Part shown: positions 28,632 to 61,299 of the stretch, piece after piece | How positions within the stretch are numbered: the first letter of the stretch is position 1 | Layout of the letters: every line of letters begins with the position of its first letter | Assembly (NCBI GenBank): GCA_034509925.1 | Contig: CM067532.1 | Location: 5,730,142 to 5,794,141 of the forward strand | Reading direction: 5' to 3' | DNA: 64,000 bases | Origin: Hirudinaria manillensis | Lineage: Eukaryota; Annelida; Clitellata; Hirudinida; Hirudinidae | The notes under the pieces: generated by a model | What the model was told of the DNA's origin: nothing | Seen by the model: only the letters and a program-made list of their open reading frames with translations | The model's database searches: none | Program-made: the position numbers and the translations under genes

Positions 28632-31600
28632 GTATCATCACACACTCATTCATTTCATTATCATCTACGAAATATGAATTTGAAATGTTCAGGTGAAAAT
28701 GGATGGAAATTGCTTTGAAAAGGAAAATATTCAAAAAAATGCCAAAAAATGCTTTCAGCTCCAATTCTAAATTCGCTCGCATTTTTAATTGCAGACGAAA
28801 TTTGACATATTTTGAAATAAAGTCGATTAATTAAAATTAATTGTAAAAAAATTAACTCCATGACATTCGTTTGGAAAGGTGAATATTTACTTGGCAGCAT
28901 TTTTTATGTTTTGCAAAGAATTGTTTTGTTTAAAATTTCTTTTGCAATTTCTTTGGTTTCGTTTTGATGACGTCAAGTGCCTATCAAGAACTTAATTTGT
29001 CGAATGCTTTTGTGCAAACAACTGGAAATAAGCTAAAGTTCATTTCCTCCTTCCTCTTAACTGCATTGGGACTTTGGACTCGGATTAAAAACTAATAATA
29101 CTTCAAGTCTTTAAAAACTAACCATGAGTTGCCCAAGTTGCGCCGGGGTCTCGAAAGGAGAGTCGGGCAGAAGGAACGACTGCAGTGGTGGTGGCGGCGG
29201 TGGTTACGATGGATCGAGAAGCAGAAATAAAACGAAATCTTGTCGCGGAGACGAATCGTTCGAAAAGTGGAAGAAAGAAATACTCGCTCAAGGAAACGAA
29301 GAAGCCTCCGAGGCCAAACACGCCCAAGGTTTCGTGGATGACGATTGCAGAGAAATTTGCAGGAGAATGTTGAGAAAGCAGCAACCGAAGCAGAAAGCGG
29401 GCTGCACTTGTTGCACCTTTATGCTGGCCGCTGCCGTACTTTTGGCCGCGGGGGTTACCGTGGCGCTCATCAAAAAGAAATTCATCGATTGAAACCTTCG
29501 GACGCGATGGTCGAATACATTTCGGATAACTTTCGTTTAATCACAAAATGACTTAATTAACTCGTTAATAATTGTTAAACATTGAAAATGAACTTTAATT
29601 TACAAAAATTTGTTAACCTGTGAACCATTTGTAGCAAATAAATATTTTTCCATAAAATGCTGCCGATTTTCAACGACAGAAAAACGTTTTCATCTGCTTG
29701 CAAAACGTTGCAATGAAAAGTAATGCAACTCATTAATATATCATTTACTATTAATCAGTATCAGCTAACAATGACATCGACCGAGTCAAAGCTGATTCAA
29801 GGATTCTAAATCTCAAATCACGACAAAAATCTCAATTTAGAAAATAAATGAGACTGGAAAATAAATTGAAAATGGATGCAAAGTCACTTCTCGTGTTGGG
29901 CAAACCGCGTAGATTTGTCTTTTGCGGGGAATTCTTGCGTAGCATCTCCACTGGTTGTTAAAATATTAAATTACATTTTTTAAAATCTAATTTTAATTAT
30001 ACATCAATTACTTGATCGGCAAATCGAGAATAAAACGGATAATTAAAATCAGCAAAAGTCAAGAAGAAAATGCATTTAGTGACTTTGGAGCTTGACATCA
30101 ACTTGACATCGAATGTCATTTGCAGAATCCTTGATCATTAAATCTTTAATTTAATCCACGAAGTCTCATTATACCGAGCTCTCTCCAGTGTTGCACCGGC
30201 ATTAAGTACACGCATCAAGTGTTCCACATCATTAGATGAAGTTCTGAAAAAAAAATAAAATAAAACGTCAACAATTTGTCCAAAATTTTAAAAGAGTTTT
30301 TACCGGTTTTTAAATCAATTTCATTTAAATTTGTAAATTCCGTAAAATATTTAATAATAGTAAAGACTTTCTTCTCGAAAGCGGTTAAGAATTATGATCT
30401 TGAGGTTTAAAAGATATTCGAGAATGTATCCATGTGTAGTTTATAAGTGTACCTGCCTGAGGTTTGGCGATTGAAATCAAGTAAAAATGATTGTCAAAGC
30501 AAATCAAAAGCAAAACAACGATTGAAAACAATGTTTTTAAGATAAAAATAAATATAATTTTCAAGGTAAATAAATAAAATAAAAACATTAAATAAATCCA
30601 TTAACGATGGATTTTAAACTCGTAAGACACGACTCTGGCTTTCAGAAACGCATCGCTATCAATCGACGTGGAACGAGCGAAGAGAAGGAGGAGAAGTTCA
30701 GTCGATGAACTGCAGTTGGTCCTCGCTTTGAAAGAAAAGGAAGGGAGACGGAAGAGGGAATTGGCCGTGAGACCCCTGCTCAAGAGAAACACCATCGCAG
30801 ACTTTGCCACCTCAAAGGCTTTCCAAGGATCCACGACCAGCCTTCTATCGGCAGCAGAACAAAGTCAGTTCTAGGAAATCATTTAATATTTAATTAATTA
30901 ATTAATTAATTTATTTATTTATTATAAATGTGTTTCTCTGACTTTTATAAATATTTTTTGAGGTGATTAGAGTTAATGATTTTTATGATGACATTGACCG
31001 AACCTTTTTTTTGAAGTTCCCTTATCATGTTATCGTACTCGTATCGGAACAACCGGTACAAAACGCATTTAATATCCCTGGACTAAAAATCCATTTGTCA
31101 ACTTCGATATGTTTTCCAATATATTTTGATTGTTTGATTAAATCTGATTCGTTATTTTAGCATTCAATTACTAAGATCTGTTATTATGTAATTATTATCA
31201 TTATTAATATTATTATTATATATTTTTTTATTATTATTATTACAGTTTGTTTATGAATGAAATGATTCAATGGGATAAAAGGAGCCAATAGATTTAACAA
31301 AAGCACCCGGTTATCTCAAAGATTACGTTCTTTATTTTAGATTATTATTTAAGTGATGACACTTAAAGGAAAACGCAATCTTTCCTCCACAATGTTTATC
31401 AATTATGAAATAATTTAAACCCTATACACACTTCTTGTTGACTTTCCTAATTTAATTATATTAAATCTTTTTTTACGCACTCGTTCATGTTTTTTGATTC
31501 ATAATTGGGGGTCACTCTGAAGACAGAAGTGTTTGTTAAGACTGACTTTGAGTTACTTTGTTAGAATTTCTTTGCTTGAATGTTTAGTTTTATTTAATTT

Positions 31601-34600
31601 TTTTTAAATATTAATTTGTACAATGTAACATAATAAAATTCCTTGCAAATCTTTAAAAAAGAAAAAGAAGCCATTTATCCTAAAGAGTGGATGAAGTCTC
31701 TCAAAATTGGCGAAAGCAAATTGCACCGACATCTGATTTTGGTCGAGCGTAGGAATACAAAGCAAGGAATAAAAAACAAGAAATAAGAAGCGAGTTGAAA
31801 CCAACGGGGACCTCGGAACATCTGGAATCAATGTAGAGCTGCCTGAAATTGCTCTGACAAAAGTCGAATTAAGCTGACAAATTGTTGTCATGGCAACTCA
31901 TCCTACTCTTAAACGCTTTCTCGTGTTTCTGACCGTTGCTTGTTGGGCTATGCAAGATGACGATGATGATGATGGCGGTCACCACTAAATTTCCATGTAA
32001 TTCCAGGAAAATAATTTCAAATGATTATCATATTTACATAGTAATGAATCATCTCATATATAAATATGCAATCCAACGCAAAATTACATGATCGTCAGAT
32101 TTTGTAAAAATAATATGTTCCTCTCACTAACAACCAAACGTTACTGTAATTAGCAACGTGTTTTCACTAGTAACTTAATACTCTTAATAAAAATTTTAAA
32201 AAGTTGCACATCCCTCAGTTAATAAATAATATAAATACCTTAAAACCTCGTGGTTTCCATGTTTCACCTGTCCCAGATTTTCCAATTACATTAAAGGTCT
32301 TCAAAATGGATTGAAAACTAATAACCGCTTTGATAAATGTCCTTAAACTAAGAAATGTGAATTTATCGGAGAATATTGTTGAGTAATTGCGAGAAATAAA
32401 TCATTTTGAGATCTAATTAAATTCTTAATGAGTTCTAATTCCGTTATTGTTTCATTTTTTTCAGTCTCAGAAAGGAAACCAAGGAATACGTTTTCATTTC
32501 TAAAATTGGTATGTAATTTATATTGTGTATGTAATTTGTATCAAATTTGGATTGAATCTCTATGTAATTTATATGGAATTTGTAGCAAAGTACACGAAAC
32601 CGTTGCTTGAATTTAAATTCCTCAATCGCATTCCTGCAGATCGACAAAAAAAGTCACAAATCCAAAGACGATTACAAAGACTTGACCGAAATTCTGAGTA
32701 CCTTGAAACTGTCAGAATTTAGGGATCATCACCTCAACACTTACAAAGTAATCAAATCAAATCCTTTAAATCATAAAATCATATTCAATTGCAAATTAAC
32801 TAGAAAATGTATTTGTTAAACGCTTATGGAACTCACGATATTAGTCCATGTCTTTTAATCTTTTCTTAAAACATTTTCAATTTGGTCAGAAAATCTTTTG
32901 AGACTCAAGCTTTAAATAAAAAGTGAATAAAACTGAAACTAAATAAAAGAAGGAAATAATAGAATTTAATCGAATAAAAGTGCTTTTAATGGATGTTTGA
33001 ACCAGGACATGCACTGGACAGACCTGGCGGAACAAGGTGACAGCAAAACAAAGAGACAGGACATCAGCGAGACCGAGAGGAAGAGAAGGGAAGCTGTTTG
33101 GGAGTTGTTCAGGAGTGAATGTGTCTTCCTCATCGACCATCTCATGGTCCTGAAACACGTCAGAACCCAATTTTTGTAATTAATCACTCACCCCTGCCTC
33201 ATGCAAAAAAAATGCCCAATTGAGACACATTTTAAACTTAATTCTTGAAATGAAATATTTGGAAAAACCAATGAAATAAAAGAAAATAAATGGATTGTTT
33301 CCAGTGTTTCATGGAGCCTTTGAAGAAGGTTCAAGTTGAAGGTCAATTGATGTTTGCCGAACCGCATCAACTTTTTGGTAACTTGGATGAACTCTGCTAC
33401 ATCAGCTACACTTTCAGCAAAGACTTCATATCGTTGCTTCTTAAAAACTTCACGTTCGCTGAATTCGGAAAGACAGAAGTTTTAATGAAAGCCTTGAAAC
33501 GAGTAATTATTTTCCTTTTATTGTAATTGTTCCTATTTTATTTCTCACTTTCACGAGCAAACAATGAATGGCCTGCAATTAAACAACAGTCGTAACAGTA
33601 ACTTAAATTCAGTCCATTTTCAGCTCTGCCAACTAACTCGTGATGGTGAGGTGTATCACAATTACTGCTTAAACTACTCGAAAAGCACGAACTACCTCGA
33701 ACAACTTCGGAAGAACGAAGACTTTATGGAGTTTGAAAAAGTTGGTCGAAATACATTTTGAATGTCAGTGCTTTAAGTATTTGTCTTTTGTTGACCTTTC
33801 AAAGCAGTCCAGGGTTTCGAACACGACACGGTTGGACCATTGCTATTACCTACAATCACCTCATTCATTATCGTCTTATGCAGGAATGGCACATCAAAAA
33901 TAATTTTTTAAGGAATCTTCTTTAACCGTGACAATGTTTGTAAGTTATAATATATTATAATTATTCATATCGTGTGTTTCAAAAGACAAGTTCTAAGAAA
34001 ATGCACTTGAAATGCAATTTTATTTCTAACCGCAGTGGTGCAACCAGGACGAGAGATGTCGCAAGTTACAACTGACGGATCTCCTCATTTCTCCTCTCCA
34101 ACACTGCACTAAAGTCCCACTCCTCCTCCACAACATCAGGAGGTACACTTCGAACCACGCGGATCAACTGTCACTCACTGAAACTCTCTCGAAACTCGAG
34201 TCCTCACTCGGTCAGTTCAACTTCAAAAATATTTTCTTCTTTCTTCCCTTGATCACAACTTAGTTCATCCATTTGCTTATCTTATGGACTCAATTTATTA
34301 TTTATTTTTAATACATACGTAATACGTTGATTTCAATTGACATTGTTATAATAAGTAATAATAATAAAAATCATAATTAAATAACTCGATTACAATGTTA
34401 TTTGGTATGATTATTTAGTAAGATTCAAATTCAAACTTCTCATTGTATCGAGAATAGGTTAAAATTATGTTTAGTATTTTTTATTGTATCCGTTGAAGTT
34501 TAGGAGTTCAGGGTATGCAACTGCAGTGCTTCCAAATTTAATTTAATTTTTTTAAAAATTCGTCTCGTTTTATTATACAAAAATAAATGAAATATTTACA

Positions 34601-37600
34601 AAAGTTGTTAATAATTCACAACAACGAACGTCATCGATCAGCTGATGGAATCAATGAATTGGAAGTATTTTCAACATGTTGATGCAACTGAATGAATGAA
34701 TGAACGAATGAACGAACGAACGAACGAATGAATGAATACAAGAGAGTGAATGAATGGCTGAAGGAATTAAAATGAAGGAATTAAAAATGTCTTAGACATC
34801 GTAAAGCATTTCTCATTCCCAAGAGTTTCATAAGAAATTTGTGGCTTCTGGTAATTCCTCTTTTAATGGTTGTCTGTGGGTCTTCTGATCATCTTCTTTA
34901 AAAAACAAAATTCTTTTTAATCATTTTTTTCTTCTTCTGGAGAGAGGCAGCAGAATTCAACACATCAGACTAACAAGCAATTCATATCTTCCAACCACCC
35001 TAAGACCAATTACATCAATTAACTGAATAGTTTCAATAAATTCGTCTTCACATTACATTGTATATAATAATAATAATAATATTATTATTATAATAATGAT
35101 AATAAAATTTATTTATTTATTTATAAATATTACAACAATAAAGAAATAATATTAATAATTATTATTATTATTATTACTATAACTATTATTATTATTACCA
35201 AGACACTGGAGTCTGCTTACTTCCTGTTAATAACATTATATTATGTTATCATTTCTGTTAAATTATGTTACCATTTATGCTGTATTAGGAAACAAAATGC
35301 TGATCAGATTCAATTTCTCGAGTTTTTAATTTTCTGTAAACTGAATTGTAAACAGATGAGCAAGAATTTGAGGTCTTTTTAAATTTGAAAAAATTTAATT
35401 CGACAATATTTCTTACAAATTTCCGGGAAATCAAATTATATTTGAAATGATTTGAATTTTCTTAATTAATTAATTATTAAAATACTTTAATTACGGGAAA
35501 TTAATTAATAATACAATATAATCGTTTGCATCACCGATGTCACGTCATTGATGACGGTTTATGAACCCACACAAGCATCTTCAGTTTTTAAGAGAAAGGC
35601 TTCGGTTTTATATCATCTCATTTGAAGCCAACAAAACATCTTTATTAATTTTATTAAAAATTAATTAAATTTAAAAAAAAATTAAATATAAAAAAATATG
35701 TGGACTCATTTACTTTGTTTTGTATAATTTTTAAATGTAAGTTTTATTCATTTTCGCCTACCAGTTAATCTGGAGACGAAAATGGTTTGCCTGACGAATT
35801 ATGAAAGAATTCAAGAAATACAACACAAAATTATTTGGCAACCAATCACGGAACTCGATCCAAGAGCTTACATTCCAGAGGTAACAACACAACAATCACA
35901 ACATAACAACAAAACAATCACAACATAACAACACAACAATCACAACATAACAACACAACAATCACAACATAACAATTACTTATTAAATTAATTTGATTAC
36001 GATATGATAATATTAATTTTTAACAGCTTGTTATTGCTTATTATATATTATATTATATTTTATATATTTAAATATTTATTTTATTAAATTTTATATTATA
36101 TTTTATTACTTAATTGCAACGTTTATCAGTTCTTAAGGGGAACTCTGAGCAGACAACCCTGTGAAAACCTTTTGACGTGTTCAAATCGAAAACTTATTCA
36201 CGAAGGACACGTCAATCTTCTTGGTTTGCTTATCATAATTTATTCGATAATTCAATCTTTTTTATTACAATATATATTAATTATTGATTTATTAATTATA
36301 TTAATGCAATCGATTTAATTAATTATAAGATTCAATTAGTTACAAATAATTAATATTAGTGTTTAATTTTATTAATACTATAAATATTCGTCATTCGATG
36401 GGCATTATTCCATATTAAAGACGTAATTTAATGCAGAAATATCCAAGGCAATATCCATGTACATGTTCCTCTTTGATGACATTTTGCTGTTGACGAAAAT
36501 CAAGAAATCCAGAAAGGTTGGATGTCCGTTTATTATAATTATTATATGCATAACATTATTATTATTGTTGTTGTTATTATTACAACAATTGTTATTATTA
36601 CTATTATTTTTTTTTATTATTATTGGCATAAAAGGTGATTGTTATGAACACGAAAACTATTATTATTATGATCATAAAAATTAATATTCTGAACATGAGA
36701 ATGGAAAACATGAAAGCTTAACGCTTTCAACACATCAGGACGGGATATGCTTTCCGCGAACTTGGGCTAATGTAATATATCAAAGGTTCGTTGAGTGATT
36801 GCATCGTGGTTGCTAAGGCGGTTGCCAAGGTGGTTGCTAAGGCGGTTGCCATGGACAGTTCATTCGGAGGTGACCCGGAAGCAGATATTTTTTTTCCTTT
36901 TTTCTTTTTGTGGAGTAAAAGTCGAATTTGGAATTTGAATTTTGCATTGAATTTTGCACTTCACTGAAAGGCAGAAACAAATTCTAAGTTAGGAAAACTC
37001 GTCAGTTTGAAGCCAAGATACCAACGTATTGAAATGGATTTTTTTTGTAAACTTTGTCGTTACTCGAGTTTCTAGTTAATTTATTTTAATTTATTTATTT
37101 AATGTGGCATGCAATTCGCATGTTAAGCCACTTGTCGAGTATCATTTCAATTGACTTTCAATCAACTACACGATTGAAGGGTCTGCCAAAAAACTGCGTC
37201 TCCTGTTCCTTGGATTCTGCCAACCAGTTGACATCAAAAGTTCCAAATGAAGGATCGTCGTACGTTGTTTACAGGCAGCCATTGGCCCTCGACAGATTCA
37301 CGGTGCACGATGTCAAGCCTCCAGACAGTCCTGGTGAGAATGACATGTTCACAATTTACCGACGTTGCCTTGTTAATATGACCATTCGGATCATTTTGTT
37401 GAATGTCATTTTGTTGTTTTTATTAAACACTAATTTTGTTTTTAATTTTGAATCTTTTTGCACGTCAAAGCAGGAAAGACTCAAATAATCAAATTGATTT
37501 GAATTGAAATTCGTTGATAATTCCAAGTTGAATTCTGTTACTTCCAAAAATAGTAGTAAAATATAAAAGTCATACTACGACATTTTGATTAATTCAGCCT

Positions 37601-39261
37601 CTAATACGGAGGTGAAGTCAACATTTTCCAAAATAAAACTTAATTTAAACTAAATTTAAATTCAATTGGATAAATTAATGTTTGTACGTTAAAAGGCATG
37701 ACTGCCAGTCAGAACATCGAGAGACTAAGCGAAGAGCTCTCGGATGGGGGAGGTGAATCAGTACCTAGGGACAGGTGTTTGCCTCACTTGGATGAATGCA
37801 ATCCGTCGTCGCAAAAGTCCAGCTTCCTCTTCGGTTGCGTCTCCATGTCGAACGTCCTCAAGAATGCTTTCGTTCTCGTCCAAGTGAACAGATTCCAGCA
37901 GATCATTGGCGTCTTCACTCTCCAGGCACAAACACACGCCAATAAAGTCAATCGAAGTTTAACATTCAGAAGTGGAATTCATTTGAAAAGCTGTTAACGA
38001 ATTTGTTTCGTAAATGTTAAAATGGTTACTGGCGGCCCTAGAATACTTAGTATCCCTTCCCTAGATGAGCTAGTAGAATATAGTAAATTTATCCTGTAAT
38101 CGTGATAATATTGCTATTAACAATTAAGTTCTGACTGAAATATCATCCCATGTTGCAACAGATTACGTGGTTGCAGCACATCCACGAAGCTCAAGAAGCC
38201 TACAAAGAATCTCTGGAAAAGTCGAGCATCTGCGAACATTTCCCGGCAGCAGTCACTTCTGGAACTCAAATTGTTCCGAAGAGTCTGCTAAGCAACATCG
38301 AGAAAACCTTAAAAGCCACTCCATCCATGGAACAACTTTCGAAAGCTCCCGGCATCAGAAGTCGAGGAGCGAGTCGATTCAACCTCCTATCACAAAAGCC
38401 TGCAAGTTTAGAGATCTGGAATCCACCAAAACAAATATCCGATCCCAGGATCGTCATAACGGTGGAAGGGACTCTCCAGAAAAGCGGTGCCAAGTGGAGG
38501 AGCGTTTCGTCGGATGCAGCAACCGTCGGTTCTCCAGGATCGGACACGACCGTCCGTAGAACTTCAGATCCGATCACGACCAGTCCTTCCAAGCTCCAGA
38601 AGACCGCCTCCCAAGCTTCGTCCGAAGACCAGCGCTTTCCGAGCTTCCAAATCATCCACAGGCCTCAAATCCACTGCTACGAATCCATGCATAGCGTTCG
38701 ATTGCCACCGGAACAAAGCATAAAACATTCGCAAACCCACCAACAAGTTCATCTCGACATTCAACGGCATCCACTCGTGCTCTGCCAGTTCAACAGCGAC
38801 TCGTGCATGCAATCGTCGCCTGCGTATCTTCAACAGGCACCAGTTCACGATTCTCAGGTGAGGTCTCAGGTAAGATGCAATCATATTAATTTTGATTTTA
38901 CATCAAACCAAACCTTTTAAAGTCATATTTTAAATTGTAGCAATTTTAAACTAATAATCTTCTATTTATAATTATTTACATCAATTTTAAACTAGAAAAA
39001 TTCCAAATATAATTATTTATTCAGCCGCAAATGGAAGCTTTTGGAATGGCGCCGAGGTCGAGAACATTCCAGCACATCCCGAGTCCACTGGCGCAGGCTC
39101 CAGTGATGTCCCCTTACGTGTCATCGATTTTAAGACTTCCGTTAGACGAGGAGAGGGTAAGGCATTCCTCTCTGAAGGTCAGAAAGAGACCAATCCCGGG
39201 GGAAGTTGCTACCGCTTTAGCCATGGAAAAATCTCAGTCGACCGACATCATTCACCTTTGA
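23309..39261 (+). CDS. PLEKHG7-like Dbl-family RhoGEF (DH-PH)
   Basis: Predicted guanine-nucleotide exchange factor for Rho GTPases. Twenty exons join in frame: 23309-23614, 25636-25751, 26660-26877, 27452-27519, 28050-28136, 28256-28317, 30646-30863, 32465-32508, 32640-32747, 33006-33158, 33305-33502, 33624-33740, 34036-34210, 35765-35880, 36130-36223, 36437-36516, 37228-37333, 37696-37946, 38162-38869, 39025-39261. From the first in-frame ATG (23327) it is 1147 aa; further 5' exons are possible. A Ser-rich, low-complexity N-terminus is followed by the DH domain (about 418-640: AVWELFRSECVFLIDHL, YCLNYS, WCNQDERCRKLQLTDLL). A PH domain follows (about 690-860: RKLIHEGHVNLL, MYMFLFDDILLLTKIKK, NAFVLVQVNRFQQ). 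The C-terminal 280 residues are Ser/Pro-rich. The order and wording of the DH-PH motifs match PLEKHG7 best. An intronless gene is nested at 29124-29492. Confidence 0.88.
27580..27650. repeat. Intronic (GAT)n tract
   Basis: GATGAT/GACGAC run in the RhoGEF intron after the exon ending 27519. Open frames crossing it are Asp- or Ile-repeat artefacts. Confidence 0.85.
28566..28631. repeat. Intronic (ATC)n microsatellite
   Basis: About 22 perfect ATC units in the same RhoGEF intron that hosts the nested gene, about 315 bp before the duplicated upstream block. Confidence 0.95.
28947..29040 (+). promoter_or_regulatory. 94-bp upstream block A with palindromic CRE
   Basis: Base-for-base identical to 47599-47692, the equivalent position upstream of the paralogous gene. 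Contains the CREB/ATF palindrome TGACGTCA (28968-28975), a C/EBP-like TTGTGCAA and an overlapping Fox-like GCAAACAA. It ends 83 nt before the ATG at 29124. No TATA box is obvious. Promoter or 5'-UTR function is inferred from position and conservation; the motif matches themselves are seen directly. Confidence 0.65.
29124..29492 (+). CDS. Small Cys-rich tail-anchored membrane protein A (nested gene)
   Basis: Intronless 122-aa frame inside the RhoGEF intron 28318-30645, same strand. There is no signal peptide. The N-terminus is Cys/Gly/Ser-rich and polar, with a Gly run (22-27). A conserved block follows at 40-57 (CRGDESFEKWKKEILAQG), then a basic stretch with cysteines, then GCTCC at 93-97 directly before one hydrophobic helix (98-116). 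It ends IKKKFID. The topology predicts a C-terminally anchored protein with a cytosolic domain; cysteines next to the helix are plausible palmitoylation sites. It is paralogous to the gene at 47761-48132, with the conserved block starting at residue 40 in both. I recognise no named family. The start is supported by the paralogue and by the shared upstream block. Confidence 0.8.
   Translation: MSCPSCAGVSKGESGRRNDCSGGGGGGYDGSRSRNKTKSCRGDESFEKWKKEILAQGNEEASEAKHAQGFVDDDCREICRRMLRKQQPKQKAGCTCCTFMLAAAVLLAAGVTVALIKKKFID
29637..29642 (+). terminator. Polyadenylation signal of nested gene A
   Basis: AATAAA 145 nt after the stop codon. It would end a compact transcript unit wholly inside the RhoGEF intron. 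Confidence 0.5.
35883..35975. repeat. 22-bp tandem repeat at the start of an intron
   Basis: About four copies of aacaacacaacaatcacaac plus 'at', beginning immediately after the donor of the RhoGEF exon that ends at 35880, so the splice donor abuts the repeat. Confidence 0.9.
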
Positions 39262-40393
39262 CCGAGCTTAAAAAGGGCCTCTAACTCACATATCAAACTC
39301 GTGTTGATATATTTTCATTCGAAGGGAAATATTTTGCAAGATTTCTTTCTTTCATCCAACCCTGAAAGACGCAATAAGGAAACTTTTTTGAAAGACCTTT
39401 ATCGAGGCTTATTGAAATAGATGGAAACATATCCTCTGATTGACTGATTGAAAGATGATTGAAATGATTGCTGTTTTAAATTCTTTTGGACGACCTTTCA
39501 ATATTCGTCGTGTCTTGTATTAAAAACCGATTCTTAATGCTGCTGGCTGTTGACGATTGATGTCGGTTGTTATCGGTTGTTGTCGGTTCATGTCGGTTCA
39601 TATCAACGACGTTTTTTTTTTTATTCCTGGAATCCGCTCCTAGTGAAGGGAGTTATTTTTATAACGGAAGATTGTGCATATCACGTGTTTCGGTGTCTCT
39701 TTTACATCAAGTCCTGCATTCATGGTGCTCCCGTGTTCGTCTTTTACCGAGGACACCACTGGTGCGGAGAACTGGCCATCTTTCATGCTCCGACCTGTGA
39801 AAGTCGACGCTACGTGGAGTCTTATTTTGTTGTTGTTGTTATTGTTGTGGTGGATCACTTGTTTGTCAGTTGAAATCAAGTTTATAAATCTGTGATGTTA
39901 AAGATAATTTATAGAAAAAAATATATACGTGTGTGCATCAATTGCAATGTCTTTTATTGATCTCGAACCTTGGTGATGTTCGAAAGTGGCCAATTAGTTT
40001 TAAATGACTTCAGGCTTCGATGACTCGGTTGCTACTTAAGAATTGTTTTTGATGATATCATTGCATTGTATTGCATTGTATTTAATATTTGTTTGTTTAT
40101 CTTTTTGTTTATCTATTATTGATAAACGTGGAGCGTCAGTCTTATCGTGAGTAAAGGCTACGTAACGATATATGTTTAACAATAAAACACAAATAGAAAG
40201 CTCATGATTTCGAACTTTAAGAAAGTGAAACCGCATGCAAAGGAAACTGGGAATGTTTAAAGGTAGGACAAAATACGAAATTTAAAAAATTTAAAATTCA
40301 CTATTTCAGAATGAAACAACTTCGCTTGGGGAATTATCGATTAATTATATCGAATTATCGCTTAACGCCAGTTGGAATCATTTAATTTTAACC
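39262..40393. other. Convergent intergenic spacer
   Basis: Lies between the RhoGEF stop (+) and the arylsulfatase stop (-), so both 3' UTRs should fall here. An AATAAA at 40182 could serve the plus-strand gene. No exon is supported. Confidence 0.5.
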
Positions 40394-43300
40394 TCAACAC
40401 CACCCCGGACTCCAAAATCCTCCCCAAAAATTTGGAAAAGCTTTCGTTGTCCTCCCTGGGAGGAATGGGGGAACCTCCTTCAGTTTGAGTTCGTTTAATT
40501 CACTTGTAAGCCTCAGGAAATCGTCTGAATGGAGAGGAGAATTGCTAAGGTCCTTATTCTCTTGCGCATCTTCTGCAATTTTAGGATTTCCAGAGGTGTT
40601 TACAGGTTTATCATTTATTTAATTTCAATTATTTAATAAATTCATTAAAATTACTTTAATCGACATTTCCAAATCACCTTGTAGATCGAACAGCTTGAAC
40701 CTTCTGGAACAATTTCTTGCGGAATTCTTGATGTTTCTGAGTTGTTTCAACTTTTTCTTGATAACGTTTTCCTCTTTCCATGTTTTAGGAACTGAAATGA
40801 TTTCATCGTGGTGTCCTGCACATCCTTCTATGATCTTGAATCTGCCACTTCTGCTTTCAATGAATTATTTTATTATTAATTGTTCTATTAACAGCAATGC
40901 TAGTGATGAAATAATTAATAAGCATTTTGTTAAATATTATTTGTTGTTGATAAAGTTAGTTAATTGCAAATGAATAAATTAATTTCAGGAAATAATTCTA
41001 ATTCGTTTTATTTAATTGTTTCAATTCTTAAATAAAAACTTCCATGGGTTGATAATCAATCAATCAATGGATTGATGACCAATCAACGATTATCAGACCA
41101 ACATCTTTGGGCTTCAAAAGTTGAATCACTTAACCTCAAAGCAGCCTCCCCGTTCATTGAATTGATTTGATAAACAAAGGATTTCCTTGCTGTTGTCTTG
41201 TGCCTGCTGAGTAAGGAAGTCCAATGAGACATTCCATCTATTTCTCCGTAACTCCAGCTCTTGTCTTCATAGAATTGCAATTTATAAAACTTTGAATTGC
41301 AATTGGCATTCACGATAATATATATTAAAATCGATTGAAATTAATATTGTACATGATATTACAATTAATACTTGCGATATTTATTTTATATAAATATAAT
41401 ATTTTACTTGTGAATCCATTTCTGGAGGCTGCTTCAACTAAGGTTGGAAACCAATCGACCGCATGAAACAATCTGTCAAATAATTTCATTCGATAATTTT
41501 TACTTAAATTTATTTCTATCTTTTAACGAATTAAATCATTAAAAGACAACAATCATCATGAATACATCCACCTACCCTTGTAATTTCTTCGCTGGAAGGT
41601 TGAACCCCGAAATGAAACTTGGGACCCTGGTGCCCCCCTCCCATAGGGTTCCTTTTCCCCCCTTGAAGGGCCAATTGCTTCCCCCGTTCTCCTGCGAAGC
41701 TCCGTTCTGTTTGTTGACATTACGTGGAAGTTTAAAATTTAATTACCATTAATGAGATTAATTATTTGCAATTTGGCAAAACAATTTTTAAAGTTTGGAT
41801 TAAATCTTAATATATCATAATAAATCCTAATAATGAGAACAATAATAATTATCAAATACTTTACGTCCGAAACGAATGCGAATATCGTATTTTCCAGCAT
41901 GTTCCTGCTTTCCAGCACCTTCATGATTCGACCAACGCCTTGGTCGACAGATGTTATCATGGCTGTAATATAACACAATATAATCATAATTGTAATGCAA
42001 TGTAATGTAATTGTAATGTATGTAATGCAAAAGAATTATTAACAACAAAAATACCTGAAAATACCTTCCTTCGCTTGGCTTTTACGAATCTGTACTTCTT
42101 CAGGAATTCCCCAGGAACCTCAAGAAATAAATGATATTTCAATTGTCCTGGTTTAGAAAATCACAAAATGGAGACACAACATGGATTACCATGAATAACA
42201 TGAATTATCAAATTCAAGCAAGCGGATATGTAGATACAAAATAAACCGAAATATAATAAAATTTAAAGGAATAATATAATAAAATAAATTAAAATATAAT
42301 AAAATTGCGGCGAATATTATACCTGGAGTGGTGGATGTGCAACCTGAAATGCAAGGAAAATGAAAAGGGGTTTTTGCAGGTCGTGTTTTCTGACGATGTT
42401 TTCAACTCTTTTCGTGAATGTGGTCTGAATATTTAAATTTATGATATTACATTTAATTAACATAAAATAAATATGTAAAAATATAAAATATATTTAATTA
42501 ACTATTATATTTATTCAATAATATAATTAATATATTTATTGATATATATATTTAATAATATATTTGTTAATATTTATTTAATAATATAATTAATATATTT
42601 ATTGATATCATATAAGTAATATTGCACGGTGACGGAATCGTGAAGAATTTGAGTCCTCAGTTAAAATGATTTTTTAAAATGAGTTTATTAAAATTAAAAA
42701 GTTTATTAAGTTTAAAAACTGAAATAAAAAGCAAACGTTGTTCACCGTGGAATATTCTTTTGTCAGGTGAATATCTTCGTTTAGACGGAAATCGTAACCA
42801 TGGGAATCTGAAATAATTGAAATATTTGTTATTTGTTTATAAAATCTCAAATAATTTAATTATAAAAAAAGGAAAATATCTTAGTTATAAATAATTATTT
42901 AATTTAATAAGCTAATCTATTGATTATTTAACTATCTGAATGATGTCTGACCCGAGTGGGTGAAATGATCTTGATGACCCGTGTAGAACCCATAAAAACT
43001 TTCAAAACCTCTGAAGGTCGGAGTATAGGAACGATTGCAGAAGCCCAAATGCCATCTTGAAATAAGAAATTAAAATTTATTCTCAGGAAGACAAATAATA
43101 AATTTAAAAAATAAATAAAATTGGACGCAAATTACAATCTTCGTATTGTAATATAATATTATAACGAACAGAATTGTAAATAAACCAAAATTATAATGAA
43201 TGCAAACGTCATTATTTTGCAATATCTCGTGGCCAAACCATTGTAATGATAATCTGACTAACTTGCCTACAGCATGTGTTGAGTAACCAAAGCTCTTCAA

Positions 43301-45091
43301 CACCTCAGGAAGGAGGGTTGCATTGACAGGGAGACCGTGTGGTCTATCGTTGGTGATGACACCTTGCTGTTAATTGCATGATTTATTATTGATAACATTT
43401 ATTATTGTAATTATTATTAATATTATTATCACTATCATTATTATTATTATTATTGTTATTATTACCATTATCAATATTATCAATATTATTATTATTATTA
43501 TTATTATTATTACTTTCGTAATTAATAACATCAAAAACTAGAGCTAACACTTTCCTTGTAAAGATCATATTATAATAAACTGAATAAAAAATAAACTATA
43601 ATTATAACGAATGCAAGCGTCAATGATTTCGTAAGATTTAATGAGTTCACCTGAAGTCCTAATTTGAATGGATACTTCCCTGTAAGCAATGCGGCTCTGG
43701 AACTGCAGGTAATAAAAAAGTAATTTATTCAAAATACGATTCACGTTCACAATACGATTCTTATGTAATAAATAAATTTATAAGTTATACTTGACGAGGT
43801 TAATGTAGTAAATAAATATAGGATTTTTGAAAAGTGATTTTCATTTCAATATCATCGACTTTGAAACTTTCCTACAGTTTTCAAATATTTATTTAAAACC
43901 TTTTTTCCAAATTTATAAATTTAAGAAATGAATTTGAAATTATTTCCAACGATGTGTCGAATAAAATTAATTAATTAAAATAAATAAATTAATTAATTTC
44001 AATTAATTGTTTTATTAAACAATAATTTAACAAATATTTTCCATTTCCAACTGACGGTGAACAAACTGGTGAAACGTAGGAATTGTTGATTTCAACTCCT
44101 TTCCTGACGAGAAAGTTGAGGTTTGGAGTTTTTATTTGTGAGTTGTGCCAACCTACGTCGTTCCAACCTCAAAAAAAAATAATTTAAAATTTAAAATAAA
44201 ATTAATTTCATAATTAAAGATAAAATTAAAGATTTAAATAAAAATCCGAAATCTAAAAATTAATTCGGGATTAAATTATTTTCTTTTAAATTCCAATTTT
44301 TAGTTAATTATTTATTTGTTTTTATTTCCTTATTTCATTTTTTTCTAAATAGTAAAATTATTATTTTCAAGTTCAAGGGTTTTATGTTATTTCAAGGTGT
44401 TCCTTCGTAATACTTGTGTATGCATTTTGAACTTTGAACTCTAAACTACACTCGGACGTGCAGTGCATAGCAAGGCATTCATTTAATCCTTATCCGATGA
44501 AATTAATGACTTTCTTAAAAACAATTTAATCTCATTTTTAAATAAAAGCTGAAAATAAATCGCACAAATTCAGAATCCGAACTTCCATTTGACAAAAACT
44601 CGACTTCATAGTTTTAAGTTCACGTATTACACGTGCACGTGCCTCTGGCATTCAGTAATTGTCGTGCTTCTAGTGCAACACTTTTCAAGGACTCTGGATG
44701 CCTTGTTGGCCAATTTTTGAACATTTTACATGAAATGTTGCATCCATAAATTGCAGCAGTAATTAAATTTCATGTTATTCTGACGCTCGTTTAAGTTTTT
44801 AAGACCTTTAAGTGATTTCATTAAAGTGAAGTTGATCGAATGCACAACAGACTCTCACATGCAGTATCTAAACATCACAACAGATTCTGACCAACAAAAA
44901 TTATCTAACCAACAAAAGCAGTATCTAATCGAATCAACAACAATATCCAGCCATGGCAACTGATTCTAACCTACATCGTCGACCACGATGAAGATGATGT
45001 GAGGAGGGGTCCGACAATTCAAGGCATTAATTACTAAGAAATCGTTCAAAATTACTAAAACAACGAAACTCCAAGACTTCACGGAATCCAT
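40394..45091 (-). CDS. Secreted/lysosomal arylsulfatase (type B/I/J-like)
   Basis: Hydrolyses sulfate esters, probably of glycosaminoglycans. Fourteen exons in transcript order: 45091-44971, 44167-44056, 43702-43651, 43366-43263, 43055-42952, 42807-42746, 42424-42323, 42118-42055, 41962-41865, 41706-41576, 41472-41408, 41264-41135, 40850-40678, 40572-40394; 498 aa. A signal peptide (about 8-23) precedes the fold. Metal ligands D38-D39 (IIFIVVDD) are present. The sulfatase signature C76-S-P-S-R80 is split by an intron; its cysteine is converted to formylglycine in this family. Other active-site residues are also present: K130-W-H132 (HAVGKWHLG), H215 (VAHPP), D273-N274 and K291 (GGKGTLWEGG). 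The C-terminus PNFWGGFWSPGWC resembles the Trp-rich end of arylsulfatase B. The start ATG (45089-45091) immediately precedes the signal peptide. The set of active-site residues looks complete, so it is predicted active; the exact substrate is unknown. Confidence 0.92.
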
Positions 45092-47598
45092 GGCAACGGA
45101 TCCGGGTTTCGACGCCTCCTAAGGCTTTCGAGTCGATGTTTTTTAAAGAATTTATGAGTAAAAAAATCTCCAAAAATAAACACAGCAGGCTTAATTTCAG
45201 GTCGTAAAAAATAAACTAATAAAACTTCAAGTAATTCACGTGCAAAGTTGAGTTTTTAAATCCAGTCTCAAGCCTTTCACAAAAGTTTCAAGTAAGAAAA
45301 AAAAAAGATTCGAAGCCTTCTACGAGCTGATTTGAAGCGGTAATAAAATTCTTTGGACCGAGTGAGATTATATTTACCGTCGCATTCACTCTTTGTCGGC
45401 ACTCACCACCTCCGACAGACTTTTATAAATAAGTCATCTTTGGGAGTGTAAATGTATTTAAATGAGTTTAAGTTACTTTAAATGTGTTTAAAATTGTTTT
45501 TTTGTTTCATTTTTGGCGCCAACCGATCGTCCGTTCTGCTCTTTTCAATGATCCTTTAATTTCAAACTCTTTGATTTTCATACTCTTTGGATAATTATTG
45601 GATTCTGCCAATTGCTGTTAAAACGAAAATGTTAAATCTCATTTACTTCTACTTAAATGTTTTTAATTAATTAATCAGCAATAGATTGTGCTTCTTTGCA
45701 GTTACAAGTAATTATATAAAACTATTCAATCGTTACAATAATAACAATTAAAACTAATAATAATAACAATAATAATAATAATCGCCTCGTAAAACAAGTT
45801 GTCGTTAAAAACACAAAAACTTGACATCTTCCCATTATCAGCCATTATTATTCCATTATGAAAGCTCTTAAAACAGGATCACATCGAGCGTTGCTTCCAT
45901 TTGTAATCTTATATCATGTTATCTCAAATTATGTTATGTTATGTTATGTTATGTTATGTTATGTTATGTTATGTTATGTTATGTTATGTTATGTTATGTT
46001 ATGTTATGCTATGCTATGCTATGCTATGCTATGTTATGTTATGTTATGTTATGTTATGTTATGCTATGCTATGCTATGCTATGCTATGCTATGCTATGCT
46101 ATGCTATGCTATGCTATGCTATGCTATGCTATGCTATGCTATGCTATGCTATGCTATGCTATGCTATGCTATGCTATGCTATGCTATGCTATGCTATGTT
46201 ATGTTATGTTATGTTATGTTATGTTATGTTATGTTATGTTATGTTATGTTATGTTATGTTATGTTATGTTATGTTATGTTATGTTATGTTATGTTATGTT
46301 ATGTTATGTTATGTTATGTTATGTTATGTTATGTTATGTCGGGTCATGTCACGTGTCCATGGCACCCTCAAAACGTCACTTGAAACTTTTGGTACCGCTT
46401 ACCTGTATCAAAATGTTTCCAACCAACAGAAGCTATTTTTAATATGCAAACGAGGTTATCAAAAGATTAATGTGGAGTTTATGCAAATATGATCAAAAGA
46501 CATTTTTATGCGCATCTAATCCCCTCCGCAATGTTTTCCATATTAAAGGGACTTTTATTGATTTATTTATTGTTATGTTATTTACTGATTAATATTAGGA
46601 TATTCAAAGTCATGACAAACGATAAATCATTGTAAAATATTTATTAAAAAATTCTTTTGAATGTTTGTTTGGGAGCCATAAATTTTAAATCTATCAACGG
46701 CTATAATCGCCTTCAATAAATATCCAATTAAAAATTCTCAACAAAACTTCTGAATGGCATCTTTCAAGTAGTATGAATATTACCCATTTGACATTTATGT
46801 AGCACTTAGTTTTAAAGCACAACGAAAGAAATTGCAAATGTCGAGGCATTCACTTAATCTTCACAAATTGTTAGGAGACATCATCCCGCTCTCGGGACAA
46901 GCTTTTTCTGGTACCATTTTTTAGGTTCACCGAGAGCGTGTTTCAACTTACATGAAAGCGTGCATTTAAACTGAATTAACATAATATTAATAACATTAAT
47001 GAATTCAAATGAGCAGTTTATAGTAATTGTGGTGATGGTAAATCAGTGTTTTAAAATTGGCCAAGCCTGGGAGGGAAAGGTTTGGTAATGGTTGATGATG
47101 ACTTATGTTTTTTTTTAACTTTTTAAATCACGAAATTCATTATTCATTCAGGGGGTTTACTATACAGAGTGTACTGCTGTACACACGGAGATGGAGGGGG
47201 CACTTTCACCTCTTGTCCCCCAACCTCCTGGTGGTTACGTCAACGAATTAAAATTAATCAACTAAAATTAAATTGATCTGTTAACTTCTAGCCCAGATGT
47301 TAGATGGTTTAAGCTGAGCAAACAAGCTTGAAAGTAACAGAGATTATTAATTATCACATCGCTAATTTAAGGTGTATGTCAATTACCAATGCAGTAATTA
47401 AGTAAAGTAATTAATTTTCTCCCCTGGACATGCTTTGTGCTTATTTCAGAAGAGGTTTTTATTCCTATCCATCACGAACTTGATTATCGTATATTTGATA
47501 TATATTAGAAATAATGCGTTAACGAAATACGAGTCCTATTTTACTCTGGAACTACTCTGCCTTTTGTGCTTTGTAGAAAAATGTGTTTTCCTTATTTT
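45092..47598. other. Divergent intergenic region with pentamer array
   Basis: Separates the arylsulfatase (-) from small gene B (+). Besides the TTATG/CTATG array it contains a compact, less A+T-rich island (about 47165-47270). One frame there reads TEMEGALSPLVPQPPGG, flanked upstream by 'tatacag', but no matching exon was found. Otherwise nothing is supported. Confidence 0.45.
45929..46339. repeat. (TTATG/CTATG)n pentanucleotide array
   Basis: About 82 perfect pentamers of two variants, TTATG and CTATG, arranged in homogeneous blocks (T-type, short C-type, T-type, long C-type about 46060-46197, long T-type). All three forward frames are open and give MLCYV/MLCYA repeats, an artefact of the 15-bp triple period. 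Confidence 0.98.
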
Positions 47599-47692
47599 AT
47601 TTCTTTGGTTTCGTTTTGATGACGTCAAGTGCCTATCAAGAACTTAATTTGTCGAATGCTTTTGTGCAAACAACTGGAAATAAGCTAAAGTT
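47599..47692 (+). promoter_or_regulatory. 94-bp upstream block B with palindromic CRE
   Basis: Identical at all 94 positions to 28947-29040. The CRE palindrome TGACGTCA is at 47620-47627. The block ends 68 nt before the ATG of gene B. Sequence on either side differs completely from the other copy. Confidence 0.65.
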
Positions 47693-47760
47693 TATCTTAT
47701 GGTTGTGAGTTAGCCGGGGTTTGTTCATTTGTCTGTGTGAAAGATTTCTTAATAGCAAAT

Positions 47761-48132
47761 ATGAGCAGCAGTGATTCAGAAGGGGGATCTGGCGAAAGAG
47801 GCAAAAGCTGTGGTTGCGAAGGCATTTCAAGGGTCCAACAAGAGTCTTCAGAAGGCAAGAAGAATGAAAAATGCTCTTGCCGTGGCAACGAATCGTTCGA
47901 GAGGTGGAAAGAGGAAATTCTTGCCAAAGGTTGCAAGGGAGGCGGTGCTGAGAAACGCAAAAATGGCAAGAAGGAAGAGAGTGGCTGCGAAGTGTTCAGA
48001 ACCATGAGCAGAAAAGTTCAAAACGAGCCTGACAAATGCGGCTGTTCGTGTTGTTCTATTGTGCTTTGTGCCGCAGTCCTCATAGCAGCTGGAGTAACGG
48101 TGGCTTTCATCAAAAAGAAGTACCTCGACTAA
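47761..48132 (+). CDS. Small Cys-rich tail-anchored membrane protein B
   Basis: Intronless, 123 aa, paralogue of the gene at 29124. The N-terminus is acidic, Ser- and Gly-rich (MSSSDSEGGSGERG). The shared block CRGNESFERWKEEILAKG lies at 40-57. A Lys/Gly-rich basic middle (58-75) follows. CGCSCC at 93-98 adjoins the single C-terminal helix (99-117, AAVLIAAGVTVAFI), and the protein ends KKKYLD. It has no N-terminal signal, so it is predicted to insert by its tail with the body in the cytosol. The C-terminal 30 residues are the most conserved part, which suggests the anchor and its membrane-proximal cysteines matter. Function is unknown. It lies between a divergent arylsulfatase and the UBL5 duplication. 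Confidence 0.8.
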   Translation: MSSSDSEGGSGERGKSCGCEGISRVQQESSEGKKNEKCSCRGNESFERWKEEILAKGCKGGGAEKRKNGKKEESGCEVFRTMSRKVQNEPDKCGCSCCSIVLCAAVLIAAGVTVAFIKKKYLD

Positions 48133-48209: not shown

Positions 48210-48681
48210 ATACATTTAGAAATACAGAAATCTAATTTGCGGCAAATATTAATAACGTTTAAGGAAAATAAGGTATTCATAACTTTAAATCCATTAAATA
48301 ATTCCACAATCATACAAAAGATATAATGGCCAGTTGCACGATTTGTCGAGACATTAAAATGGTTGATCAATAGATTCATAAAATGGTTAAATTGCTCGTC
48401 TCCTTAAAAGAAAGTAGGCTCTATCTGGTGGCAGCATTTTAAGTCAGTCGCAATACCAGGTAAACTAATACATCTTACTAGTTAGATTCCAATTCTCCAA
48501 ATTATGGCGAAACTTACCAACTTGAGGCATCTTTAGGTTAAGAGTAAAATAATTTCACTCTTCTTAAACCATTACAATAATTAATACCATTTCATTCTCT
48601 TATGTCTGCCTCTCATAAATGCAGCTCATTTTTCCATTTTTCAAATGCAATCAATACCAAGACTACATGTAGGATTCCAGT

Positions 48682-48687
48682 TTTATT
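48682..48687 (-). terminator. Polyadenylation signal, UBL5 copy 1
   Basis: AATAAA on the minus strand about 125 nt after the stop, conserved at the same place in the second copy (49921-49926). Confidence 0.45.
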
Positions 48688-48810
48688 GTCAAATATTATT
48701 ATTGTTGTTTTATGGTGAAAGATCTCAATTAAATGCAGAGATCTCATCACAAAGCCACCTGAAATCCTCAAATGTTACTAATATGTACTAATATTAAGCT
48801 CAATTGACTT

Positions 48811-49204
48811 TTATTGGTAATATAATTCCAAGTTCATTCCATCATGAATCTCATCTGCAAATTAAGGCAAATTAAGTTAAAAATTTAGAAATAAAACAAT
48901 TCAGTAAAAAGAAAAGGAACTCACAATCAGCCAATGTAACACCATCCTTAAAAATATTGTACCACTTTTTAAGCACAATCTTGTCAGCCCTAGTTCCTGT
49001 TTGAGCCGCGATGAGTTTCTTCAGATCCCCGACGGTATCATCTGAACTAGTGGTTTAATAAAAAATTAATAATTGTTATCAATATTTAAAGCTAATCAAA
49101 ATTAAAGTTAATCCAAATAATTTCAAATTTTGATTTTAATCAACTTACTTGCACTTCACTCTAACTTTCTTTCCCAATCTATCGTTACAAATGATTTCAA
49201 TCAT
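48811..49204 (-). CDS. UBL5: Ubiquitin-like protein 5 (Hub1/UBL5), copy 1
   Basis: Nuclear ubiquitin-fold protein that binds spliceosomal proteins (HIND of Snu66/SART1) non-covalently and tunes pre-mRNA splicing. Exons in transcript order: 49204-49149, 49046-48925, 48854-48811; 73 aa, exactly the family length. Family-defining strings are [37 protein letters not shown] and [15 protein letters not shown]. It ends in YYQ rather than Gly-Gly, as expected for a modifier that is not conjugated. Asp22, the residue that contacts HIND in known Hub1, is present. It differs from copy 2 only at residues 5 (I), 20 (S) and 49 (N). Confidence 0.97.
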
Positions 49205-49920
49205 CTTTTAACCTGAAATATTCTTTTGTCTCAAGAAGCAGAAAGAAAGAACAAAATTCAATAAAGTAGTGTCGCCTTTGGCAATCAAAATCAAGATAGC
49301 ATAGAGGAGAGTCCTAAAAATTGTGAATTGTCGTAATATAATAAATTTTCAACAAAATTTCAATAACATTTATTATAAAATCCCTTTTAATAATTTTTAG
49401 ATGTGTAGTTACATATGTAACACACCGATGTAACAGGTCTACTTAAATGTGAAATACAGAAATCTAATTCGCGGCATATATTAATGATGTTTAAGACGTT
49501 AAGGCATTCTACTTTAAATTCATTAAATAATTCCAGTCACACAAAAGATTCTAATTGTCAGTTGCACGATTTGTCGACACATCAAAATGGTTAATCAACA
49601 GCTTCATAAATCGTTAAGTTGCTCGTCACCTTTTAAGGTGGAAAACAGGCGCTATCTGGCGGCAGCATTTTAAGTCTGGCTCAAAACCAGGTAAACTAAT
49701 ACATCTTAGCAATTAGGTTCCGATTCTCCAACTTATGGCGAAACTTACCAACTTGAGGGATCAAGAAATCCCAAAATCATAGGTTAAGAGTAAAATAATT
49801 TCACTCCTCTTAAGCCATTACAATAATTAATACCATTTCATTCTCCTATGTCTGCCTCTCATCAATGAAACTCATTTTTTCAAATGCAATCAATACCAAG
49901 ACTACATGTAGGATTCCAGC

Positions 49921-49926
49921 TTTATT
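49921..49926 (-). terminator. Polyadenylation signal, UBL5 copy 2
   Basis: AATAAA on the minus strand about 117 nt after the stop, equivalent to the signal of copy 1. Confidence 0.45.
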
Positions 49927-50042
49927 GTCAAATATTATTATTATTATTGTTTTATGGTGAAAGATCTCAATCAAATACAGAGACCTCATCACAAAGCCAA
50001 CTGAAATCCTCAAATGTTTAGTCAGTACTGTTCAAATGACTT

Positions 50043-50426
50043 TTATTGGTAATATAATTCCAAGTTCATTCCATCATGAATCTCATCTGCAAATTAAGGC
50101 AAATTAAGTTAAAAATCTAGAAATAAAACAATTCAGTAACAAGAAAAAAAACTCACAATCAGCCAATGTAACACCATCCTTAAAAATAGTGTACCATTTT
50201 TTAAGCACAATCTTGTCAGCCCTAGTTCCTGTTTGAGCTGCGATGAGTTTCTTCAGATCCCCGACGGTATCATCTGGACTGGTGGTTTAATAAAAAATTA
50301 ATAATTGTTATCAATATTTAAAGCTAATCCAAATTAAAGTTAATCCAAATTTTGATTTTAATCAACTAACTTGCACTTCACTCTAACTTTCTTTCCCAAT
50401 CTGTCATTGCAAGTGATTTCAATCAT
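50043..50426 (-). CDS. UBL5: Ubiquitin-like protein 5 (Hub1/UBL5), copy 2
   Basis: Exons in transcript order: 50426-50371, 50278-50157, 50086-50043; 73 aa, same splice phases as copy 1. Substitutions relative to copy 1 are T5, P20 and T49. T49 (KKWYTIFKD) is the usual animal residue, so copy 2 looks closer to ancestral at that site. All ubiquitin-fold core residues and the YYQ end are intact, splice sites are canonical, and there is no sign of decay. Being upstream on the shared strand, it lies head-to-head with KATNB1, with 1.8 kb between the start codons. Confidence 0.97.
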
Positions 50427-52228
50427 CTTTTAACCTGAAATATTCTTTTATATCAAGAAGCAGAATTAAATAATACAATTCAATACACTAGTGTCGCCAT
50501 TGTTTTATGATCAGACAAATAGAGGAGGGTCCTGTAGCTTACATAGTTATGTATGTACTACACCAATATAACAGGTCTATTTAAATGTGATTCCATAATT
50601 TATATAAATAACACCTTGTCAGCCCAATTATTAATGACTTTCAATTATCAAGACTTATCAGGTATATTACAATAAAATAATACATAAAGCGTTAAGCTCT
50701 ATGAAAACAACATTCCAAAGTTTCCTTACAATATGGTTTGTATTAACTTTTTATGGTTTGTGATGGCATGAAATTTTATTCTACGAAACTTAACAAAGTG
50801 AAATGCTAAAACAATAAAATACATTTTTCTAATCCAGGCTAAATTTGTAGCATCGCATTCTAGCTCAAACTACCTCGTAAATATTCCTTTGAATAAATCT
50901 ACAACAAGCCGCGAACCCCGATGCACACCCAAAACTTGTTTTGCAAAGACATAACAGCAAAGAATATTCAATTAATTGAAACAATTCGATTTTTAAAATT
51001 ACTAATTGTTGGAAGTTGCAAAACAAAAAATATTTTAATTAATTTGAATAAACTATAATTTAACCTTAAAACCATTAGTGGCATTGTGATAATCTTTAAA
51101 TTTAAATTGTTATCAAATTCTTGCTTAAACGAACTTTCGTAATTTTTTAATTTTAAATTTTATTTTAAGATATCAATTGAATTATACGATTAAAAAATAT
51201 TATGTTTTGGAGGCTGTCTTCTAATGTCTTCATGATGAGTATTTAATAAATGATATTTATAGAATGATTTTGTCGCAGTTAATTGTCATATTTATTTAAA
51301 GTTATTTTTTATTTATAAACCTTAAAGGTTAATTAAAACTTTGTGCTAGGCAAACGTTCTATTTTCACTTTTAAAATTTTAGTGAATGTAACAAGTCAAT
51401 TGCTATTTTTATTGATTAAAATATAAAACTGAACTGATTGTTTTTGTCTTAAAAATATGTTCAATGTAGCTGTAATAAAATCCATCCTACACGAAAATCC
51501 TCATTGTTTACCTTATGTTGAATAAATAATACGTTTTATCGACCACTTGGAGAATTTTAATTCTGGAATATTACGTATTTATATCTTAAGGTATATTGCA
51601 TTATCGTTATGTTTTAGAAATTTAGTTTGATTTGAAACTAATTCTATGGTTTCTAATAATTGTGCTCTGAATTTTAAAGACGTTTGCTCTTTGACGATTT
51701 TTCAAAGTTGTAATCCCTAAATGTAATCTGTATGCCCATTAATAATTCTTTGCCCTATTTGCTATTGTGATGTAAAGTGGGCTGCATTAAGTTAATTATT
51801 GAGCTTATATTATTTATCTCTTTCTAAAGACATTCCCTTCAGTAAGGGAAAGAGTCCAATCCCTCAATATATTAAATGAAATTTTATGATAAACCAAATG
51901 AATTTCTTAAGACATCTTACTTGCTTTGTGTCACATTACTCATTAAATTTGTTAAATTTTGTTTTCTAAGTTTTGACAGTAAACACAAAGAGTATAAAAC
52001 ATGCTGATTGCATAAAATATTGATTAGTCATAGAACTTATATTTTTTTCGAATATAATTGTAAGGAAAATTTAATTTCAAATGGAATTTCAGAGTTAAAT
52101 AATCTCTGACAAAAAGTGAATGAAACAATTTTACTAAACTCATAAAACCAGGGAAAATCAGCATGAAACTCAAAATAGAAACACTGATTCTCAGTTGAAT
52201 AATGTGTTAATATTTTAGACTTAACTAA
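50427..52228. other. Divergent promoter region between UBL5 and KATNB1
   Basis: A+T-rich DNA without a supported exon. It must hold the upstream sequences of UBL5 copy 2 (-) and katanin p80 (+). No strong palindrome or microsatellite is seen. Confidence 0.5.
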
Positions 52229-60589: not shown

Positions 60590-61299
60590 GTCCATCCATC
60601 CATCCATCCATCCATCCATCCATCCATCCATCCATCCATCCATCCATCCATCCATCCATCCATCCATCCATCCATCCATCCATCCATCCATCCATCCATC
60701 CATCCATCCATCCATCCATCCATCCATCCATCCATCCATCCATCCATCCATCCATCCATCCATCCATCCATCCATCCATCCATCCATCCATCCATCCATC
60801 CATCCATCCATCCATCCATCCATCCATCCATCCATCCATCCATCCATCCATCCATCCATCCATCCATCCATCCATCCATCCATCCATCCATCCATCCATC
60901 CATCCATCCATCCCATCCATCCCTCCCGCCATCCATACCTCCATCCATCCATCCATCCTTCCATCCATCCTTCCATCCATCCATCCATCCTTCCATACAT
61001 CCATCCATCCATCCATCCATCCATCCATCCATCCATCCATCCATCCATCCATCAATACATACATCCATCCATCGAGCCATCCATCCATCCATCCATCCAT
61101 CCATACATCCATCCATCCATCCATCCATCCATCCATCCATCCATCCATCCATCCATCCATCCATCCATCCATCCATCCATCCATCCATCCATCCATCCAT
61201 CCATCCATCCATCCATCCATCCATCCATCCATCCATCCATCCATCCATCCATCCATCCATCCATCCATCCATCCATCCATCCATCCATCCATCCATCCA
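60590..61299. repeat. (CATC)n tetranucleotide array with degenerate core
   Basis: Two long perfect CATC runs (about 60590-60913 and 61100-61299) flank an interrupted core (about 60914-61098) with CATA, CTTC, CCTC and GAGC variants. Both strands are open in several frames (SIHP or MDGW repeats), a consequence of the 12-bp period and not genes. Confidence 0.98.

Follow-up and report, generated by a model that had tools for sequence, protein, structure and literature searches.

The promoters of mammalian paralogues usually show low similarity that is quickly lost, according to a study that also describes a group of old paralogues whose promoters are unusually conserved, represented in human and mouse by histone, keratin and complement genes (PMC10100218). 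Ectopic gene conversion between duplicated genes has been reviewed for Drosophila (PMC3924832). Here we describe a noncoding block of 94 bp that occurs in two identical copies upstream of two small paralogous genes, denoted A and B, of the leech Hirudinaria manillensis, within an analysed stretch of 64 kb (the window; C7:5730142-5794141, G+C 33%). The pattern is real and uncommon, and it is of a known kind, that of old paralogues with unusually conserved promoters, with which it shares promoter-proximal sequence that is far more alike than expected. The leech pair differs from the mammalian cases in that it belongs to an annelid and has a short, perfect island, flanks that cannot be aligned and encoded proteins that are 46% identical. 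The likeness to ectopic gene conversion lies in linked duplicates with an identity tract longer than expected; such conversion usually joins regions that are still highly similar, whereas the leech tract is a lone island outside the coding sequences (CDSs), which contain no such tract. Duplicated conserved noncoding elements of vertebrates are comparable in that both paralogues have retained a noncoding element; these are mostly distal enhancers of developmental genes and are similar but not identical, in contrast to the leech block, which is promoter-proximal and perfect. Finally, templated insertions generated during break repair resemble the block as short isolated copies with unrelated flanks but, alone, would not pick a paralogous position.

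The two copies of the block (28947-29040 and 47599-47692, both on the plus strand) agree at all 94 bases and are bounded by a mismatch on either side, exactly where a preceding sequence-only reading had placed them. Copy A ends 83 bp before the ATG start codon of gene A, and copy B 68 bp before that of gene B. The best local extension of the match spans 97 bp at 98.97% identity, and the chance of an identical run of 94 bases is about 1e-49 to 1e-23 at background identities of 0.3 to 0.57. Global alignment of the flanks (20, 40, 60 and 80 bp per side, eight tests, 500 shuffles) yielded p values between 0.062 and 0.976. When 200 bp were considered, the right flank scored 17, below the shuffle maximum of 21, and the left flank scored 28, equal to the shuffle maximum (50 shuffles each). 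The claim that the flanks are unrelated accordingly stands in the sense that no similarity comes near the level of the block, whereas a faint likeness on the left side is possible, given the 200-bp score. The edges of the block are step-like, with at most a faint left shoulder. In a comparison of the two loci (10 kb against 10 kb), the convincing matches were the block and parts of both CDSs; under relaxed scoring, the block and the CDSs fuse into one alignment of 603 columns (62%), and the AT-rich matches obtained with the same scoring have E values of 8e-4 and above.

A DNA search of the whole genome (148,429,096 bases, 23 contigs) with the block as the query produced two scored candidates, both of which are the known copies, such counts being lower bounds. 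Two sub-blocks searched genome-wide with up to three mismatches gave two matches each and no control matches. Sensitive alignment over 254 kb detected no degenerate third block, the best scores of 21 and 20 comparing with 19-24 for 20 shuffled blocks, and a 30-base part of the block had no exact counterpart in the viral contigs. On the strength of these counts, neither a dispersed repeat nor the mobile cassette of the sequence-only reading is supported.

Gene A (29124-29492, plus strand) is an uninterrupted open reading frame (ORF) for a protein of 122 amino acids (aa) with 9 cysteines, a C-terminal hydrophobic segment and the terminus KKKFID. Gene B (47761-48132, plus strand), also an uninterrupted ORF, encodes 123 aa with 11 cysteines, a C-terminal hydrophobic segment and the terminus KKKYLD; its start was placed by choice at the ATG at 47761, the frame list opening at an upstream GTG (47737). 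The proteins are identical at 56 of the 121 aligned residues (46%), and the segments they have in common include SCRGxESFExWKxEILAxG and the C-terminal segment, so that the earlier description of an 18-residue core and a C-terminal anchor as what still aligns was roughly right. The codons of the two genes agree at 206 of 363 bases, and the four-fold synonymous sites of identical residues agree in 4 of 19 cases, which is about the chance level; the duplication therefore looks old, both proteins having been maintained by selection. Polyadenylation-signal words are found downstream of both ORFs, and an A stands at position -3 relative to the main start codon of either gene (by inspection). In each protein, CC immediately precedes the hydrophobic segment, which is followed by a short lysine tail, and the best 19-residue Kyte-Doolittle windows of A and B reach 2.4 and 2.6, respectively. 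The combination of the CC, the hydrophobic segment and the lysine tail suggests that A and B might be tail-anchored, perhaps palmitoylated, membrane proteins. Pfam returned one match for each protein, both below the curated cut-offs, and a sequence search of PDB with B only retrieved no match up to an E value of 1. An exon on contig C9 with a similar tail is a weak third relative of the family (E values of 0.003 with A and 0.143 with B). A match to B on contig C8 (E value of 2.68, 22% identity, one internal stop) was taken as chance. Downstream of gene B, at a distance of 87 bp, begins a tandem duplication of about 1.05 kb (48219-49280 and 49451-50502, 87% identity).

The block contains a word that we recognize as the perfect palindromic cyclic AMP (cAMP) response element (CRE), TGACGTCA, at 28968-28975 in copy A and 47620-47627 in copy B, with a presumed regulatory function. 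It also contains a word resembling a C/EBP site, TTGTGCAA (29010-29017), overlapping a word resembling a Fox site, GCAAACA (29014-29020; TGTTTGC on the minus strand), both named from general knowledge; by identity with copy A, this pair occupies 47662-47672 in copy B. All three words are thus present in the block as had been reported. Within the window, TGACGTCA is found three times, including once in each copy of the block, whereas 0.87 occurrences are expected per 64 kb; 6 of 100 shuffles reach three. By simple arithmetic from that expectation, the chance of encountering it in a given 94-bp stretch is about 0.1%, a figure weakened by the fact that TGACGTCA is one among many words open to picking. 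Co-regulation of A and B by cAMP-type signalling through the CRE may be considered a fair idea. The literature retrieved on leech promoters and CREB dealt with mammalian systems, the search being too broad to imply that leech work is lacking. Transcription may plausibly start close to the 3' end of the block because the CRE word lies 148 bp (A) and 133 bp (B) before the ATG codons, taken together with the A at -3.

As a control for the origin of short identical tracts, we surveyed the repeats in a contiguous region of 254 kb comprising the window and its surroundings, excluding words that occur more than 20 times. Among the 129 exact direct repeats of at least 30 bp, 98 were removed as simple sequence and 31 were retained, including ten of at least 54 bp for which the flanks were tested for homology. 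Seven of these ten are homologous on at least one side, and the three without flank homology are the block, a pair of 221-bp long terminal repeats (LTRs) and a pair associated with ABCE1. The ABCE1 pair (62 bp exact, 69 bp at 98.6% identity) has two matches in the genome and no paralogues. Its copies, 1,150 bp apart, map to L035:6779-6847 and L035:7929-7997 (C7:5820920 and 5822070 onwards), about 43 kb beyond copy B of the block; judged by eye, one is intronic and the other is located at or beyond the 3' end. BLAST revealed eight pairs at 85% identity or more, including an inverted 68-bp pair at 89.7% (95659/97438). Isolated recent short copies do arise in the H. manillensis genome, and the existence of the ABCE1 pair without paralogues makes it less safe to infer constraint from perfect identity. 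The 221-bp pair belongs to a probable LTR element (L029:8709 to L030:4227) whose two LTRs are identical and separated by 5.3 kb, suggestive of a young insertion; the assignment rests on TG...CA ends and a sequence resembling a primer binding site, both read by eye.

The absence of differences among 94 sites caps the divergence between the blocks at 3.1% (95% upper limit). For blocks of the same age as the genes, the rate of evolution would have to be about 1-3% of the neutral one or lower, with some 97-99% of the sites constrained, under an assumed neutral divergence of 1-3. Given the apparent old age of the duplication, perfect identity of the block needs either recent homogenisation or near-total constraint, and the tract exceeds what independent divergence of the paralogues would leave (94 of 94 bases against 4 of 19 four-fold sites, with the flanks at or near the shuffle level). 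The matching position and orientation of the copies favour an inherited promoter or 5'-leader segment, that is, common descent, whereas the step-like edges together with the zero differences speak for a short tract copied recently rather than for constraint alone. Both conversion and constraint, alternatives put forward in the sequence-only reading, remain live, and we favour their combination; the third alternative, the cassette, is unsupported.

The account that we put first, and to which we assign close to an even chance, is that of a constrained, inherited promoter or leader island on which a recent short copying tract has been superimposed. The blocks would be what an old gene pair has inherited as its proximal promoter or as the beginning of its 5' leader. 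Purifying selection would have kept a CRE-bearing island, probably near the transcription start, recognisably homologous in the two loci while the surroundings drifted past alignment. A single short tract of ectopic gene conversion or template switching, of about 94-97 bp, would then have recently overwritten one of the islands, wiping out the residual differences. What speaks for this account is that two copies were found, on the same strand and at similarly short distances from the start codons of old paralogues, that the divergence bound is low, that the steps look like tract ends and that the ABCE1 pair demonstrates short recent copying. Two considerations weigh against it. Ectopic conversion usually requires homology longer than a 94-bp island amid unalignable surroundings. 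In addition, no block was detected in 30 kb around the C9 relative (scores of 23 and 24, below the mean of 27.0 for 50 shuffled blocks), so that nothing outside the A/B pair shows constraint on the block.

The strongest competing explanation, which we nevertheless consider unlikely, dispenses with recent copying and invokes near-absolute purifying selection acting on each single base of both blocks. It accommodates the equivalent position and orientation of the blocks, the CRE accompanied by the overlapping C/EBP-like and Fox-like words, the limitation of the identity to a single island and perhaps also, as a faint conserved shoulder, the left-flank local score that equals the maximum of 50 shuffles. 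However, it requires that all 94 sites be held to the very low substitution rate derived above, on the same assumption of neutral divergence, and it would have to produce step-like edges. Transcription factor sites normally tolerate some variation. The typically low and quickly lost similarity of paralogue promoters, as described for mammals (PMC10100218), is a further difficulty. A specific form of this explanation, somewhat less probable again, would make the block an invertebrate case of a paralogous ultraconserved promoter or leader, with all 94 bases constrained in both copies and about 97-99% of the sites held since the old duplication; constraint of this strength could result from factor sites, the start site and an overlapping upstream ORF being stacked on the same letters.

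The ABCE1 pair, an isolated copy nearby without a paralogue pair, also bears on a different possibility, namely that the block is a recent non-homologous copy, a 94-bp segment of one promoter inserted into the other locus by templated break repair where no ancestral homology existed. The sharp edges and unrelated flanks would follow naturally from such an event, but the insertion would have needed to hit the corresponding site ahead of the paralogous gene, in the same orientation, for which the chance is about 0.1% (random landing within 50 kb either way, a tolerance of 100 bp either way and a factor of 1/2 for orientation), and we regard this origin as improbable.

More doubtful still is the interpretation of the block as an element acting at the transcript level, whether a conserved upstream ORF, an alternative coding first exon (MTSSAYQELNLSNAFVQTTGNKLKFI...) or a structured RNA. 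One ATG-initiated frame, MTSSAYQELNLSNAFVQTTGNKLKFI, is open across the block in both copies (28967-29095 in block A, 42 codons and a stop; 47619-47708 in block B, 29 codons and a stop; both on the plus strand), the first 26 residues being common to the two frames, and the first two codons that extend past the block (F and I) differ at third positions only. Nevertheless, frames of such size are common, being held on either strand by 256 of 1360 windows of 94 bp (19%), for which reason the coding exon and upstream ORF were set aside; moreover, peptide constraint alone does not preserve synonymous sites, and the start context is weak (by inspection). A structured noncoding RNA was likewise rejected given the ordinary fold energies of the block (z of +0.54 on the plus strand and -1.42 on the minus strand) and the result of an Rfam search with 801 bp around copy A, in which none of the 15 matches attained the gathering score.

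An assembly artefact or a dispersed repeat, for which one could cite the fact that genome search counts for repeats are lower bounds, is very improbable, because two copies were found genome-wide and each would lie well inside single reads if the assembly is the published HiFi assembly of H. manillensis, with an average read of 18.73 kb (PMC10671345).

Elsewhere in the window, an ORF of 487 aa on the minus strand (5478-6941) with BTB_2 and Ion_trans domains encodes a probable voltage-gated potassium channel. A TCCA tetranucleotide repeat of about 177 copies extends from 60591 to 61299, and long pentanucleotide arrays are present at 10522, 19458 and 45929. Outside the window, contig C9, a nuclear contig, contains mitochondrial DNA (C9:3026446 onwards) that matches the mitochondrial contig at 99.7% identity across a compared length of 2,871 bp; it either entered the nuclear genome recently or reflects a join made during assembly.

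With regard to the interpretation of such loci, the block calls for caution: paralogues may match perfectly in noncoding DNA without constraint being the cause, since an isolated 69-bp duplicate, that of ABCE1, exists without any paralogue pair. If conversion did occur, the A/B locus would be a compact natural case of homogenisation restricted to a promoter island, in loci that otherwise no longer align. If, on the other hand, constraint accounts for the identity, the block would show, to an extreme degree, how regulatory DNA can persist longer than the protein under its control, and this in a group of animals whose regulatory DNA is, to our knowledge, little charted. Should the combination of an inherited, constrained island with a recent copying tract prove true, A and B would possess an identical proximal switch, and their expression would probably overlap.

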